Shown: piece by piece, positions 38,519 through 45,125 of the stretch
How positions within the stretch are numbered: position 1 is the stretch's first letter
Layout of the letters: each line of letters opens with the position of its first letter
DNA from: Haloplanus sp. CK5-1
Lineage (GTDB): Archaea > Halobacteriota > Halobacteria > Halobacteriales > Haloferacaceae
Length of the DNA: 64,000 nt
NCBI RefSeq assembly: GCF_037201915.1
Contig: NZ_CP147505.1
Location: 310,001 to 374,000, forward strand
Direction: 5' to 3'
Position numbers and translations under genes: made by a program
The notes under the pieces: model-generated
Told to the model about the DNA's origin: nothing
What the model saw: only the letters and a program-made list of their open reading frames with translations
Database searches by the model: none

Positions 38519-39088
38519 TCACCCCGACGACCGGCCGTCCAGCCACCGGACCACCTCGTCCGCGTGGTCGTCCGGCGGAAAGACGGGGTAGAAGACGTGG
38601 TCGATCCGGCCGTCCGAGAGGACGAGTGTCAGCCGTTCGAGCAAGCGCTCCCCGCCGGCCTCGAAGGTCGGCAGGTCGAGTCGGTCGGCGAACTCCCCGT
38701 CCTCGTCGCTGAGCAGTTCGAACGGGAGGTCGAGCCGATCCCGGGCCTCCCGCTGGTAGTCACTCGACTGCACCGAGAGTCCAAAGACCTCGGCCACTCC
38801 CCGGTCTTGGAGGTCGTGATAGCGCCCGCGAAACCCGCGGGATTCGGGTGTACAGCCTCTCGCACCCGGTATCTCCTCCCACCCGTCCGGGATCACGTCC
38901 CGGTCCGGGCGCCCCGTCTTCGGATAACAGTAGACGACGGTCCGGCCGGAGACGCTCGACAGGTCGACCGTCCGCCCGTCCGTCGCCGGGAGCGGGACCG
39001 AGGGTACGGTCGCCCCCGGAAGGTGATCCGCCGCACCGTCGTCCGTCGGTTCCGGAAGGTCGTCCGGGAGTGGAAACTCTTCGCTCAC
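38519..39088 (-). CDS. BCP-type peroxiredoxin
   Basis: 189 residues starting with GTG. The thioredoxin-fold strand VVYCYPKTGRPD and the peroxidatic-Cys motif GCTPES (C79) match the redoxin/AhpC-TSA group; the resolving Cys seen in relatives as CTPQSC is here CTPESR, so another thiol (possibly C54) would be needed. It should reduce hydroperoxides in the cytoplasm. A TATA-like TTATTTCA lies 25-32 nt before the GTG, supporting the start. Confidence 0.8.
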   Translation of the reverse strand: MSEEFPLPDDLPEPTDDGAADHLPGATVPSVPLPATDGRTVDLSSVSGRTVVYCYPKTGRPDRDVIPDGWEEIPGARGCTPESRGFRGRYHDLQDRGVAEVFGLSVQSSDYQREARDRLDLPFELLSDEDGEFADRLDLPTFEAGGERLLERLTLVLSDGRIDHVFYPVFPPDDHADEVVRWLDGRSSG

Positions 39089-39112
39089 GGTCGTCGCGTA
39101 CGGCAGGAGGAC

Positions 39113-39120
39113 TGAAATAA
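39113..39120 (-). promoter_or_regulatory. TATA box of the peroxiredoxin gene
   Basis: Minus-strand TTATTTCA is 25-32 nt before the GTG start at 39088. Confidence 0.5.
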
Positions 39121-39253
39121 CGTTCGGGCGTCGGACGTCGTTCGCCGGGACGGTCCGTCCGCGGTGTGGTGTGTGACACGACCCGGGCGCTACCACACAC
39201 GATCCGGAGGGAACTCCAGTCTGTCGAATCGATCCGCCGGATCGGTGCCGAAT

Positions 39254-39262
39254 AATTAAATA
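39254..39262 (+). promoter_or_regulatory. TATA box of the enolase-like/glycerate kinase operon
   Basis: AATTAAATA lies 27-35 nt before the ATG at 39289 in an otherwise GC-rich spacer, fitting a leaderless two-gene transcript. Confidence 0.6.
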
Positions 39263-39288: not shown

Positions 39289-40539
39289 ATGGTAGAAATC
39301 AGACGCGTCGATGCCCGCGAAATACTGGACTGCCGTCTCGAGCCGACGCTCCGCGTGACGGTCGAAACGGAGTCCGGTAGTGGTCGGGCCGACGTGCCGT
39401 GTGGTCGCTCTCGGGGGGAGCACGAGGCCGTCGACCTCCGGGACGGCGACGACAGATACGACGGCCTCGGCGTCCGGACCGCGGTGTCGAACGTGACGGA
39501 TACCATCGCGCCCGCGCTGACGGGGCGGGACGCGCTCGAACAGCGGGCGATCGACCGGACGCTGATCGACCTCGACGGGACGGCGGACAAGTCCGCCCTC
39601 GGCGGCAACGCGCTCACCGGCGTCTCGCTGGCCGTACTCAAGGCCGCGGCCGACAGCGTCGACCTCCCGCTCTACCGGTATATCGGCGGGGCCGACGCGG
39701 GCGTGCTCCCGATCCCGTTTTTCGACCTGATCGAAGGCGGCGAACTCGCTTCGAGCGGGCTCGCGTTCCAGGAGCACCAGGTCGTCCCCGTGGGCGCGGA
39801 CTCCGTCACCGAGGCCGTGCGCATGAGCGCGGAGGTGTACTACGAACTGGGTGACCTACTCGCGGAGCGACACGGTGAGGCGTCGCGCAACGTCGGGTTC
39901 GAAGGCGGCTACACTCCCATCGACGTCACCGATCCCCGCGACGCGTTCGAACTCGAACTCGCCGCCATCGAGGAGTGCGGATACGACGACGAGTTCGTAC
40001 TGGCCGCGGACGTGGCCGCGTCTCACTTCTACGACGAGGCGACGGGCACGTACGGACTGATGGATCGCCGGTTCGACCGGGACGAACTGCTCGACTTCTA
40101 CGAGGAACTGACGTCGACCTACCCCGTCGTGTCGCTCGAAGACCCGCTCGACCAAGCGGATTTCGACGGGTTCGCCGAGTTGACGGAGCGACTCGACATC
40201 CAGATCATCGGTGACGACCTGTTCGTCACGAACCCCGAGCGGTTACGGACGGGGTTCGACCGAGGGGCCGCGAACGCGCTGTTGTTGAAAGTCAATCAGG
40301 TGGGGACCGTCTCGGAGGCACTCGACGCCGCGGCGGCCGCCCACCGGCACGGCTACGCGGTGCAGGTCTCCGAACGCTCGGGGCAGACGGCCGACACCTG
40401 GCTCGCGGACCTGGCCGTCGGGTTGAACGCCGGGCAGATCAAGACGGGGGTCTCCAGGAGCGAGCGGACCGAGCAGTACAACCGACTGCTGGAAATCGAG
40501 GCAGCCCACGGAGCCATCTCGTTTCCCGACGGGCTGTGA
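39289..40539 (+). CDS. Divergent enolase-family protein
   Basis: 416 residues, full enolase length. Metal ligands D241, E284 and D309, the catalytic pair E205/K334, and E162 and K385 (yeast D246, E295, D320, E211/K345, E168, K396) are present. The two active-site His are not: yeast H159 aligns with L153 (GGELASSG) and H373 with E362 (SERSGQ versus SHRSGE). The N-terminal SRGNPT motif reads CRLEPT. The fold and carboxylate chemistry are probably kept, but the substrate or efficiency may differ from 2-phosphoglycerate dehydration. It is coupled by a GTGA overlap to glycerate 2-kinase, whose product is the normal enolase substrate. It is likely a paralogue of a housekeeping enolase elsewhere. 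Confidence 0.85.
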   Translation: MVEIRRVDAREILDCRLEPTLRVTVETESGSGRADVPCGRSRGEHEAVDLRDGDDRYDGLGVRTAVSNVTDTIAPALTGRDALEQRAIDRTLIDLDGTADKSALGGNALTGVSLAVLKAAADSVDLPLYRYIGGADAGVLPIPFFDLIEGGELASSGLAFQEHQVVPVGADSVTEAVRMSAEVYYELGDLLAERHGEASRNVGFEGGYTPIDVTDPRDAFELELAAIEECGYDDEFVLAADVAASHFYDEATGTYGLMDRRFDRDELLDFYEELTSTYPVVSLEDPLDQADFDGFAELTERLDIQIIGDDLFVTNPERLRTGFDRGAANALLLKVNQVGTVSEALDAAAAAHRHGYAVQVSERSGQTADTWLADLAVGLNAGQIKTGVSRSERTEQYNRLLEIEAAHGAISFPDGL

Positions 40540-41891
40540 CCGTGTACGAGAACGAGCGGACCCTCCGTGACCACGGGAACGCGGACGCCAGAGCCGACAT
40601 GCTGGCCGTCGGGGCCCACGCCGTGCGGGCCGTCCACCCCGAGAACACCGTTCCGTCCCACGTGACGGTGGCCGAGTCGACGCTCGACGTCGACGGCGTT
40701 TCGTACGATCTCGGGGCTATCGACGACGTCTACGTGGTCGGTGCCGGAAAGGGGGCCTCTCACCTCGTCTCGACGCTCCGGACCGTCTTGGGGGGGCATC
40801 TGACCGGGGGGATCGTCGTCGACAAACACGGGCAGGGGACGCCGGTCCGGGATATCGTGCTCCGCGAGAGCGGCCACCCGATCCCCGACGACGACGGACG
40901 GCAGGCCGGCGACGCGGTGATCGAACTGGCCGAAACGGCGACGGCGGACGACCTTGTGTTCGTCTGTGTCACTGGCGGGGCGTCGGCACAACTGACCGCG
41001 CCGCCGGACGGCGTCTCGACCGCCGACCTCGCGGCGCTCACCGAGACGCTGCTCAACGCCGGGCTCCCGATCCACGAGATCAACACCGTCCGAAAACACG
41101 TCTCCGAGATCAAAGGAGGGCGGCTGACCCGACTCGTCGACCCCGCACGACTCGTCACGCTCGTCCTCGTCGACGAAGTCGCCGGCGAGCCGTGGGGACC
41201 GACCGTCGGCGACGACACGACCTTCGCGGACGCGGTGGCCGTCCTCCGACGACACGGGCTGTGGACGGACACGCCGGCCCCGATCCGGGCCCACCTCCGG
41301 CGGGGAACCGACGGCAGCGTCCCCGAGACGCCCGACCGAGACACGCTTCGGCGCGCCGACTCCCAGGTCGTCGTCCTCGGCGACGCCACCGACCTCTGCG
41401 ACGCGGCCGCGGCGAAAGCCGCCGAACTGGGCTACGACACGCGGGTGCTCTCCAGCGTGCTCGAAGGCGAGAGCCGCGAAGTGGGCGTCGTCCTCGCCGG
41501 AATCGCCGCGGAGATAGCCAGACGCGACCGGCCGCTGGAACCGCCCTGCGTCCTCGTCTCCGGGGGCGAAACCACCGTGACGGTCGGTGACGACCCCGGA
41601 CGCGGGGGACCGAACCAGGAACTCGCCGTCCAGTTCGCCACCCGGGTGGACGGACTGGACGGCGTCACGCTGTTCTCCCTCGGGACCGACGGGACGGACG
41701 GCCCGACGACCGTCGCCGGCGGACTCGTCGACGACGGGACCCACGAACGCGCCGCCGACCTCGGGATCGATCTGTCCGACCACGTCGCCCGCCACGACAC
41801 GACGGCCCCACTGGAACGACTGGGGGACGCGGTCGTCACGGGGGCGACGGGGACGAACGTGATGGACCTCCGCCTGTTGGCCGTCCACTGA
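40536..41891 (+). CDS. Glycerate 2-kinase (MOFRL/DUF4147 family)
   Basis: 451 residues from a GTG overlapping the enolase-like stop by 4 bp. N-terminal nucleotide-binding motif VVGAGKGASHL near residue 68, VCVTGGASAQLTAPP near 147, and the C-terminal MOFRL domain (SGGETTVTVGDDPGRGGPNQELAVQFA, FSLGTDGTDGPTTVAGG) identify it. The family makes 2-phosphoglycerate from D-glycerate and ATP. Together with the upstream enolase-like protein it could feed glycerate to phosphoenolpyruvate, if that protein still acts on 2-phosphoglycerate. Confidence 0.92.
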   Translation: MTVYENERTLRDHGNADARADMLAVGAHAVRAVHPENTVPSHVTVAESTLDVDGVSYDLGAIDDVYVVGAGKGASHLVSTLRTVLGGHLTGGIVVDKHGQGTPVRDIVLRESGHPIPDDDGRQAGDAVIELAETATADDLVFVCVTGGASAQLTAPPDGVSTADLAALTETLLNAGLPIHEINTVRKHVSEIKGGRLTRLVDPARLVTLVLVDEVAGEPWGPTVGDDTTFADAVAVLRRHGLWTDTPAPIRAHLRRGTDGSVPETPDRDTLRRADSQVVVLGDATDLCDAAAAKAAELGYDTRVLSSVLEGESREVGVVLAGIAAEIARRDRPLEPPCVLVSGGETTVTVGDDPGRGGPNQELAVQFATRVDGLDGVTLFSLGTDGTDGPTTVAGGLVDDGTHERAADLGIDLSDHVARHDTTAPLERLGDAVVTGATGTNVMDLRLLAVH

Positions 41892-41928: not shown

Positions 41929-42231
41929 TCATCGACCCCGCCCACCCGACACGTCCGCCCCGGCCTCCGCGTTCGCCGCCTGTCGCTCCAGGTCGGCGGC
42001 GAGCGCCCGGGCCTGGTCGGGCGGGAGCGAGACGCTGTCCGCGTGGTGGCCGACGTGGTCGACGTCCTCGCCGTCGAACTCCAGTCGGAGTCTGACGCTT
42101 CCCGGCGCGGATTCGGGGCGGTCCACGTCGACGACGGCCGCCGCGTCGTCGCTCCAGTCGGGGCCGAACATCCGTCCAGTCGCGAAGTCGAGCGTCGTGT
42201 ACGCGCTCACGTCGAGTAGTCTGATCGCCAT
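41929..42231 (-). CDS. Small partner protein of the siroheme reductase (resembles DUF6360), copy 2
   Basis: 100 residues, acidic. It shares with the protein at 19678-19962 the N-terminal AYTTLDF pattern, the beta pair (VRLRLEFDGEDVDH) and the HADSVSLPPDQARALAADL C-terminal helix, so the two are paralogues. It overlaps the stop of the second reductase by one base (TGATG), again directly downstream. The tail is Gly/Arg/Ala-rich and probably disordered. The conserved pairing with the reductase, not any motif, suggests its role. Confidence 0.8.
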   Translation of the reverse strand: MAIRLLDVSAYTTLDFATGRMFGPDWSDDAAAVVDVDRPESAPGSVRLRLEFDGEDVDHVGHHADSVSLPPDQARALAADLERQAANAEAGADVSGGRGR

Positions 42232-43994
42232 CAGTCCGACGAGACCGGCACGTCGTCGACGCCTGTCGGTGCTGGACTCTCCCCCTCCGCGAACGGGTAC
42301 CACGACTGCTTGGCGTCGTCCATGTAGGGGTCCTCGTAGGTGGTTTCCTCGGGTTCGCAGAGGTCGACGATCGACTCCGTACCGAAGTCCTCGACCCACT
42401 CTCGGAACGTCTGACCCTCCTCGCGGTGGGCGGAGAACGCGCCGATCAGGTTCCGGATCGCACCCGGCACCTCGTCGGCGGGCACCCGCTGGCTGACCCA
42501 CTCGACGAACTCGGGACGGGCGCCGAGGCCGCCGCCGACGCCGATGTCGAGCGCTTCGACGATATCGCCGTCCTTCTGGGCCCGCATCCCTTGGAGCCCG
42601 ATGTCGGCGGTTTGGGCGTGGCCACAGTCCGCGGTACAGCCGGAGTAGTGGATCTTGACCGCCTCCACGTCGTCCGGGACGTCGACGTTCGCGTTGAGCC
42701 AGCGGAGGACCCGCGTCAAGCGCAGTTTCGTCTCCGTGAGCGCGATGCCGCAGAACTCGGTGCCGGTACACGCCATCCCGCCGCGCTCGAACGGCGTCGG
42801 TTCGGGCCGGTGGGTGTCCAGCAGGGGTTCGGCGAGTAGCGGCTCGACCGCCTCCGGCTCGACGTCCATGATCAGCGGGTTCTGCCGACGGGTGAGTCGG
42901 ATCTCGCCGGAGCCGTACGCCTCGGCCACGTCGGCCAGCGCGATGGCCTCCCGTGCGGTCACCCGACCCACCGGGGTGTTCAGGCCGACGTACGTCCGGC
43001 CGTCCGGTTGGTCGTGGACGCCGACGTGGTCGACCTTCCCCGCCTCGGGCGGGCGCCCCGCGTTGTACGTGTACTCGCCGCGGAAGTTCCGCCCCGCCTC
43101 GTCGAGGTCGAAGTCGACGTACTCCTCGAGGAGGTCGCGGACCTCCTCGGTCCCGTGGTCGTCGACGAAAAAACGGCTCCGGTTCTTCTGACGGTTGTCC
43201 CGCCGGCCGTGTTCGTGGTACAGTTCGACGAAGCCCCGAACCAGCTCGTAGGCGTTCTCCGGACGGACGAACGTATCGATGCTCCGCGCGCGACGGGGTT
43301 CGCGGCTGCCGGTCCCGCCGCCGACCCGGACGTTGAAACCGGTGATCGTCTCCCCCTGGATCTCCGTCTCGGCCGGTTCCAGCCCGATGCCGTTGATCGC
43401 GTCCTGCGCACAGCCCTCCCGACACCCCGTGACGCTGATGTTGAACTTCCGTGGCATGTTGGCGAGTCCGTCGTCGCCACGCAGGTCCTCCTGCAGACGT
43501 TCCAGCAGGGGCTGGGTCTCGATCAGTTCCGCCTCGTCCTTGCCGGCGACCGGACAGCCCACGATGTTGCGCATGGTGTCGCCCCCCGACGACCGCGTCG
43601 TCACGCCCACCGACTCCAGTTTGTCCCAGATGGCCGGCACGTCCTCCAGGTTGATCCAGTGGAGCTGGATCGACTGCCGGGTCGTGAGATCGATCCACGC
43701 GTCGCCGAACTCGGGATTCTCGACCGGGCCCGTGGCGTAGTCGCGGGCCACCTCGCCGATGGCCCGGAGCTGTTCGGCGTTGAACTGGCCGTTGGCGTTC
43801 GCCAGCCGCATCATGAAGTAGGACTCCTGCCCGTCACGCTGGTGGAAGACGCCCCAGAACTTGAACCGCGAGAACCACATGTCGCGCTCGTCCTCGGGGA
43901 TCGACTCCCACCCCTTCTCGGCGAACTCGAGGATCTTCTCGCGAACCTCGTCGCCGTACATCCCCTCCTTCCACGCCTCCTTCTCGTTGCTCAT
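42231..43994 (-). CDS. nirA: Assimilatory nitrite reductase, ferredoxin-dependent
   Basis: 587 residues. Siroheme-cluster Cys are in CTGTEFC and SGCTADC. The anion-site motif reads PRKFN, giving K183 and N185; Asn at the second position marks nitrite reductases (spinach K224/N226), whereas the paralogue at 17898-19676 has Lys. A nitrite/formate-type transporter lies just upstream in the same direction. It is one base from the DUF6360-like partner. Leader and promoter are in the 288-bp AT-rich spacer. Confidence 0.9.
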   Translation of the reverse strand: MSNEKEAWKEGMYGDEVREKILEFAEKGWESIPEDERDMWFSRFKFWGVFHQRDGQESYFMMRLANANGQFNAEQLRAIGEVARDYATGPVENPEFGDAWIDLTTRQSIQLHWINLEDVPAIWDKLESVGVTTRSSGGDTMRNIVGCPVAGKDEAELIETQPLLERLQEDLRGDDGLANMPRKFNISVTGCREGCAQDAINGIGLEPAETEIQGETITGFNVRVGGGTGSREPRRARSIDTFVRPENAYELVRGFVELYHEHGRRDNRQKNRSRFFVDDHGTEEVRDLLEEYVDFDLDEAGRNFRGEYTYNAGRPPEAGKVDHVGVHDQPDGRTYVGLNTPVGRVTAREAIALADVAEAYGSGEIRLTRRQNPLIMDVEPEAVEPLLAEPLLDTHRPEPTPFERGGMACTGTEFCGIALTETKLRLTRVLRWLNANVDVPDDVEAVKIHYSGCTADCGHAQTADIGLQGMRAQKDGDIVEALDIGVGGGLGARPEFVEWVSQRVPADEVPGAIRNLIGAFSAHREEGQTFREWVEDFGTESIVDLCEPEETTYEDPYMDDAKQSWYPFAEGESPAPTGVDDVPVSSD

Positions 43995-44282
43995 CGGGCC
44001 TCACTTCCGGAACCAGCCGTGTGTCCATCTTTCTCCGCCGCACATTCGGGGATTCAATATTTCTCACGGAAGAGTATCTGTTGACCGTTGCGTATAAGGA
44101 TATCCGTTCACAAAACGGGTTTTATTTGTCCCTCACTCCATGCTCGTTCGGTTTATTATGGGATATACCGTGTATAAGGTTGTAATTCGTCGATCTGAAG
44201 CCGAAAGAGTGGACGATCGTAGGACGGTTCGCCGCACGATGACCACGGCCGATGGTTCGGTCGAGCCACGGAGCGCGCGCCG
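43995..44282 (-). promoter_or_regulatory. AT-rich leader/promoter region of nirA
   Basis: No gene. On the minus strand a TATA-like AAATATTGAA lies about 60 nt before the nirA ATG. AAAACGGGTTTT (44112-44123) is a perfect 12-bp inverted repeat and may be a regulator or termination element after the transporter gene. Confidence 0.45.
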
Positions 44283-45125
44283 TCAGTCGTCGTCAGCGCT
44301 GCTGAAGGTCCCCGAGTGTGGGTTGCCGTTCGGTAGGTCGACCTTGTAGGATTCGTTGATGTACCAGTAGGCGCCCCCCATCATGACCAGGCCCGCGAAG
44401 GCGTTGCCGAGCGTGACGATTGAGATGTTGTAGGCCATACCGACCCAATCGACGGCGGCGGGGGCTGCCTGTCCGGTCGTGATCTGCAGGAAGTTCGCCA
44501 GCGAGAGAACGGTCATGTTGGCGACGCTGTGTTCGAACCCCGTCCCGGTGAACGCGAGCAGACACCACCAGATCATCACGAGTTTGGCGATGGTGTTCTC
44601 GAGCCGGAAGCTGCACCACACCGCGAGCACGACCAACCAGTTACAGAAGACGGCTTGGATGAACAGTTCCAGCGGCGAGAGCGTCATCTTCGTCTCCGCC
44701 ACGGCGTAGACGAGCGTGGGATCGGAGAAGACGCCGCCCCAGGCCGCCATCGCCCCAACCAGCAGGGACCCAAAGAGGTTGCCGATCCACGACCACGTCC
44801 ACACCCTTCCGAGGGCCGCCCAACTCGTCTGCCCCTCCAAGGCACCGACGCCCATGATCATCGCGTTGCCGGTGAACAGCTCGGAACCGGCGACGATCAC
44901 GAGGCTGAGGGCGACGCCGAACGCTCCCGCCATCACCACGCCGCGGAGCGGCTCCAGCGGCGTTCCGACCATCGGGGTCCCCAGCGCGAAGACGAGGAGG
45001 ACTGCGAGACCGATGTACGCCCCCGCCATTCCCGCGTGGATCAGGTATGCCGGGAGCCGCTTGTCGATCAGTTCGATCTGTGCCGCCGCTGCATCACCGA
45101 TGTCGGCGAGTTCGTCGCCGTACAT
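44283..45125 (-). CDS. FNT-family nitrite (formate) transporter
   Basis: 280 residues, about six membrane helices, matching FNT channels. Conserved stretches are GSELFTGNAM (near residue 82), CNWLVVLAVWCSFR (near 160) and FTGTGFEHSVANM (near 195), the second half-repeat signature. Location just upstream of nirA argues for nitrite uptake (NirC type) rather than formate. The upstream 330 bp are AT-rich with a 14-bp palindrome. Confidence 0.9.
   Translation of the reverse strand: MYGDELADIGDAAAAQIELIDKRLPAYLIHAGMAGAYIGLAVLLVFALGTPMVGTPLEPLRGVVMAGAFGVALSLVIVAGSELFTGNAMIMGVGALEGQTSWAALGRVWTWSWIGNLFGSLLVGAMAAWGGVFSDPTLVYAVAETKMTLSPLELFIQAVFCNWLVVLAVWCSFRLENTIAKLVMIWWCLLAFTGTGFEHSVANMTVLSLANFLQITTGQAAPAAVDWVGMAYNISIVTLGNAFAGLVMMGGAYWYINESYKVDLPNGNPHSGTFSSADDD

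Follow-up and report, generated by a model that had tools for sequence, protein, structure and literature searches.

A haloarchaeal enolase-like protein with leucine and glutamate in place of two active-site histidines, encoded beside a divergent glycerate-kinase-like protein

The active site of enolase is a textbook example of invariance. The carboxyphosphonoenolpyruvate synthase of phosphinothricin biosynthesis is an enolase homologue with another reaction, and is a precedent for such divergence. One of the conserved histidines may tolerate change, as the H159A variant of the yeast enzyme reportedly retains significant activity. The established mechanism consists of abstraction of the C2 proton and β-elimination from a 2-phospho carboxylate, and the roles of His154, Ser42, Glu163, Glu204, Lys335, Arg364 and Lys386 have been described for the Mycobacterium tuberculosis enzyme (PMC10619443). 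Class II glycerate kinases make 2-phosphoglycerate (2-PG; PMC2063504).

The window analysed here is a stretch of 64,000 nucleotides from Haloplanus sp. CK5-1. A gene on its plus strand (39289..40539, ATG start) encodes an enolase-like protein of 416 amino acids, identified by HMM matches, an AF2 model and its place in a clade of 15 sequences. Both Enolase_N (PF03952) and Enolase_C (PF00113) were found, and the match to the TIGR01060 'eno' model, at 471.7 bits, lies above the curated equivalog cut-off of 300. Structural modelling, which the first-pass annotation had proposed, was carried out with the 15 sequences (pLDDT 86, pTM 0.88; lid-loop residues 152-155 are weak). The model has the enolase N-terminal domain and (β/α)8 barrel, with a TM score of 0.93 to the reference enolase MjEno (PDB ID: 2pa6), to which the protein is 51% identical. 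It is not of the MR/MLE type, as it contains PF03952 and not MR_MLE_N, and it scores far below the cut-offs of the muconate and galactarate subfamily models. A TATA-like element, AATTAAATA (39254..39262, plus strand), was found by eye approximately 30 bp upstream of the ATG and is a possible archaeal promoter for this gene and the kinase gene that follows it. A divergent peroxiredoxin-like gene (AhpC-TSA/Redoxin; 38519-39196) shares the short intergenic region; it is not kept beside the other genes of the clade.

Active-site residues were assigned from a phmmer alignment to MjEno and from multiple alignments. The first-pass annotation had claimed that the metal ligands D241, E284 and D309 and the catalytic pair K334 and E205 are conserved, that both histidines are replaced and that the N-terminal SRGNPT loop is rewritten. 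All of this was confirmed, and the replacements extend to 15 of 15 clade members. The protein, like the canonical enolases MjEno, MtEno and those described by TIGR01060, retains the fold, metal ligands, lysine base, glutamate acids and Arg/Ser/Lys contacts (S41, Q161, E162, E205, D241, E284, D309, K334, R363, S364 and K385). The metal ligands and the lid serine S41 are invariant in the 15 enolases, as are the base, acids and substrate contacts K334, E162, E205, R363, S364 and K385. All eleven of the residues listed above, which serve in catalysis, metal binding or substrate contact, are unchanged in proteins that differ from one another at up to ~36% of residues.

Unlike canonical enolases, these proteins have Leu in place of H159 and Glu in place of H373 (yeast numbering), and we refer to them as the LE clade. 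L153 is the last residue of an IEGGEL motif (codons 148-153, 39730..39747, plus strand), and E362 lies in SERSGQT (codons 361-367, 40369..40389, plus strand), where Q366 also replaces a glutamate. His is found at both positions in 103 of 103 canonical enolases and in none of the 15 LE members, all of which have Leu and Glu; Glu at 362 is also present in both members of the sister group. The SRGNPT loop reads CRLEPT (codons 15-20, 39331..39348, plus strand), with L17 and E18 fixed in 15/15. Lid loop 1 reads PCGRSRG in place of PSGASTG (codons 37-43, 39397..39417, plus strand); it keeps the metal-binding S41, and R40 and R42 are fixed throughout the clade. The first-pass statement that the rest of the protein is intact is right for the catalytic and metal residues. 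Its list of substitutions was incomplete, as A40R, T42R (A38R and T40R in the MjEno comparison), N146D, N149E, E366Q and K396Q are fixed as well.

A shifted alignment, with a histidine nearby, had been raised as a possible flaw. The alignment is not shifted. Position 153 is anchored by G150-G151 and Q161-E162 and position 362 by S361 and R363-S364-G365, and there are no gaps near either. A histidine is present close to the first site, at H163, directly after the retained catalytic E162 (codons 162-163, 39772..39777, plus strand). The LE sequence reads QEH against QEF in canonical enolases, most of which have Phe here. Judged from the alignment, H163 is a new residue, invariant across the clade, and not a displaced H159.

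Relatives 64-100% identical to the query were found in 13 of 391 genomes of the class, the window genome included. A contig search added two further loci, and plasmids of Haladaptatus and Halorubrum supplied more. DxRLEPT, PxGRSRG, IEGGEL and SERSGQT are common to all 15 aligned members. In a canonical reference set of 103 enolases, 76 columns are at least 97% invariant. The LE clade substitutes ten of these, mostly in active-site loops, and seven of the ten carry a single fixed residue (G17L, A40R, N146D, H153L, H362E, E366Q and K396Q). The haloarchaeal housekeeping branch substitutes none of the columns, despite a longer stem (0.86, shared with Archaeoglobi relatives, against 0.43 for LE). 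Pairwise dN/dS among the LE enolases is 0.09-0.24, indicating purifying selection. Outside class Halobacteria, no LE-type protein was seen among the best non-haloarchaeal matches, read residue by residue, in 393 genomes of the phylum; the closest relative among those matches is an intermediate with one of the two histidines. Actinobacterial matches at 52% identity turned out to be canonical enolases with both histidines. We found no account of such a variant enolase in the open-access literature searched.

In the tree the LE sequences are monophyletic (support 100/100) and placed among archaeal enolases of the methanogen type, a long way from the housekeeping enolase of haloarchaea. The phylogeny suggested by the first-pass annotation therefore sets the two apart, and a recent duplication of the housekeeping gene is ruled out because the tree separates them. 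The window genome has its own housekeeping enolase elsewhere, an intact 401-aa ORF beside ribosomal-protein genes. An apparent in-frame TGA in that gene was rejected, as the match had overrun the true stop. The presence of this other enolase is the sole point in favor of reading the LE gene as an artefact or as drift, that is, as a misalignment, a sequencing error or a decaying housekeeping copy. The chance of this is negligible, given the same changes at 15 loci, open frames, gap-free anchor motifs, dN/dS below 0.25 and the position of the clade in the tree. Drift, pseudogene formation and misalignment are refuted by the comparative data, and the earlier view that the changes are not drift is strongly supported by their fixation in 15 diverse haloarchaeal sequences.

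The sister of the LE clade (99/95) is a pair of enolases from genomes G517 and G647 of another class of the same phylum, which we infer to be Archaeoglobi. They are second enolases of their own genomes (L165 / L201, 8061-9338, and L167 / L202, 299-1567). Their motifs read SERSGETED, DCRGIPT and PSGLSRG, and GGKHA, which contains H159, is kept. They have H373→E and T40→R in common with LE; unlike LE, they retain H159, G17 and E377, and no kinase gene is adjacent to either. The most economical order of change would place H373→E and T40→R first, and H159→L and the remaining substitutions later. A rhomboid-protease-like gene follows this sister-type enolase.

The product of the gene downstream of the LE enolase (40536..41891, plus strand; 4-bp overlap with the enolase stop) is a paralogous class II glycerate-kinase-like protein of 451 amino acids (DUF4147 + MOFRL; PF13660 208 bits, PF05161 110 bits). 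Its fold is the glycerate kinase fold of 2b8n and 1x3l. In domains and fold it resembles the class II (MOFRL) glycerate 2-kinases TM1585 and T. tenax GK; it differs from them in belonging to a separate clade and in having PWGPT, with a 4-residue gap, in place of IASGPT. A DUF4147/MOFRL kinase adjoins the LE enolase at 15 of 15 loci. It is downstream at 14, and at nine its start codon lies in a 4-bp overlap. In the most divergent member, G134 (L123, G134:C9:101409-104012), the order is reversed, with the kinase first and a gap of ~57 bp. The G135 kinase (L117, G135:C1:1552311-1553590) is split over two frames, through a frameshift or an assembly error. An obligate kinase neighbor, together with a separate canonical enolase in the same genome, sets LE apart from canonical enolases.

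When the same 391 genomes were searched with the kinase, the 13 that scored best (334-967 bits) coincided exactly with the LE genomes, and the highest score after them was 284 bits. The match is perfect, though the nominal probability of ~1e-24 exaggerates its significance because the genomes are related. All LE kinases fall in a single clade (100/100), separate from the standard glycerate kinases of haloarchaea, with which they share 55 invariant positions. The canonical loop D-x-x-G-D-x-x-x-x-I-A-S-G-P-T is replaced by EVAGEPWGPT (codons 214-223, 41175..41204, plus strand); in 14 of 14 LE kinases D-GD-IASGPT gives way to DE-AGE-PWGPT, with E214, A216, W220 and the 4-residue gap fixed. The protein falls below the NCBIfam glycerate 2-kinase cut-offs (199.9 against 550 and 141.7 against 670 bits), which is weak evidence because these models describe other lineages. 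Enolase and kinase distances across the LE loci are correlated (r = 0.94). Canonical versions of both enzymes, enolase and glycerate kinase, are also present in the carrier genomes. The kinase partner, the clade-wide family and the stepping-stone relative are what is new here beyond the first-pass annotation.

We consider it somewhat better than an even bet that the LE enolase is neofunctionalized and that its gene and the kinase gene make up a two-gene kinase-lyase module. The sequence, fold, pairing, co-occurrence, selection and phylogeny are observed; catalysis, the order of steps and the class of substrate are what we infer. The kinase would phosphorylate a glycerate-like 2-hydroxy acid on its C2 hydroxyl. 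The LE enolase would bind the phosphorylated product through two Mg2+ ions (D241/E284/D309 and S41), K334 would abstract the C2 proton, and E205/E162 would expel the C3 hydroxyl to give an enolpyruvate phosphate. As the metal site, K334, E205/E162, R363 and K385 are all kept, C2 proton abstraction and β-elimination from a 2-phospho carboxylate are expected. The rebuilt positions surround the phosphate, lid and leaving group (L153, E362, R40, R42, E18 and E149), and L153, E362, R40, R42 and E18 may reshape these regions for another or an additional substrate. From the sequences, the simplest account appears to be that kinase and lyase act in turn on a glycerate analogue; the best guess at the substrate would be a 3-substituted or L-configured glycerate, and D-glycerate is unlikely to be the only one. 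The earlier suggestion of a related carboxylate or an altered mechanism is plausible, and is made likelier by the divergent glycerate-type kinase that always adjoins the enolase.

Several observations favor this kinase-lyase module. The residues of the chemistry are invariant in 15/15 while ten canonical-invariant positions are substituted, dN/dS is 0.09-0.24, and the kinase is adjacent in 15/15, with both genes in the same 13/391 genomes. The kinases group on their own and share one fixed loop change, their distances track those of the enolases (r = 0.94), and canonical copies are already present in the carriers. Sugar-acid genes lie upstream in one carrier, and there is a second, independent kinase-enolase pairing, described below. 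Against it count that the kinase is the only conserved pathway neighbor, that H159 is reportedly dispensable in yeast, that the H373E sister enolase has no adjacent kinase and that the G135 kinase frame looks broken. The narrower proposal, that the pair performs an undescribed step in which a 2-hydroxy acid other than D-glycerate is phosphorylated at C2 at the expense of ATP and then undergoes enolase-type elimination to an enolpyruvate phosphate, is tentative and falls a little short of an even chance.

The main rival is that the pair is an ordinary isozyme system that takes D-glycerate to D-2-PG and on to PEP in the manner of the non-phosphorylative Entner-Doudoroff branch, with R40 and E362 compensating for the lost histidines and the genes kept for regulation or for a local pathway. 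The intact catalytic residues are consistent with this, and ordinary 2-PG turnover is conceivable, as yeast H159A is reportedly active. The product of class II glycerate kinases is indeed 2-PG (PMC2063504). We regard this rival as unlikely, for the carriers already hold canonical copies of both enzymes, and redundancy does not explain fixed changes in both partners at otherwise invariant positions. Less likely again is a non-catalytic role, in which the LE protein would bind either the kinase or a phosphorylated acid and would exert control instead of catalyzing a reaction. The loss of two residues invariant in all canonical enolases and the strict pairing with one partner agree with such a role; yet eleven functional positions are invariant in 15/15 despite up to ~36% residue differences, and a pseudoenzyme need not retain both metal sites and both Lys/Glu pairs.

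The genomic setting bears on the kinase-lyase reading in one case. In Halorubrum pCBA1229 the pair is downstream of a sugar ABC transporter, an MR/MLE enzyme, a mannonate dehydratase and an aldehyde dehydrogenase, and the set also holds two D-2-hydroxyacid dehydrogenase-type genes. This single case suggests sugar-acid breakdown. The aldehyde dehydrogenase that precedes the pair would suit the isozyme alternative, as in glyceraldehyde → glycerate → 2-PG. Beyond the kinase, no neighbor is conserved across the LE loci, and no phosphonate genes were seen in the annotated neighborhoods. Within one genus the module occupies two different chromosomal sites, and it was not found in G173 of the same genus. 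The two sites, together with the plasmid copies, indicate that the pair appears to move as a unit, as a transferable module. In the window, the minus strand downstream (42231-45125) encodes a ferredoxin-type nitrite/sulfite reductase and a formate/nitrite transporter, probably for nitrite assimilation; a link of the LE pair to these genes was rejected, as it is not conserved at other loci.

In public plasmid records the LE enolase goes under 'phosphopyruvate hydratase' and its partner under 'DUF4147' or 'glycerate kinase', so the 'eno' equivalog call can over-annotate. The altered enolase and kinase together suggest an undescribed two-step reaction filed as an ordinary glycolytic enolase. If true, the module would be parallel to, and distinct from, glycerate → 2-PG → PEP. 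With H159 replaced by Leu, H373 by Glu and a living H373E-only intermediate, the clade is a natural experiment both on what the histidines do and on the route by which a housekeeping enzyme takes on another function. The strict partnership makes the substrate testable through what the kinase phosphorylates.

Among the matches in the class was a second set of variant enolases, with 41-48% identity to the query. These SAR-type enolases, named here for their SARSGET motif (H373→A), have IQDF (E168→D) and keep H159; as a single clade (100/100) they occupy a long branch of their own. They resemble LE in pairing a variant enolase with a small-molecule kinase. They differ in being an independent clade with other substitutions and in having a kinase of an unrelated family, which lies upstream and not downstream: an APH-family kinase gene (PF01636) precedes the enolase on the same strand at 12 of 13 loci, often with a 4-bp overlap (L125-L132, L211 (15215-17508), L212-L216; L016-L021). 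Kinase-paired variant enolases thus arose at least twice in haloarchaea. If both pairings are as proposed, archaea would have turned to new substrates repeatedly by recruiting enolase itself, in addition to its MR/MLE relatives. The SAR genes lie near sugar-acid catabolic genes; their neighbors at the loci examined include MR/MLE enzymes, SDRs, HpcH aldolase, SBD_N and PdxA-like genes. These enolases too are annotated as phosphopyruvate hydratase. Seven of the 13 SAR genomes also carry LE; counted by genus, 4 of 86 have both (p = 5e-4).
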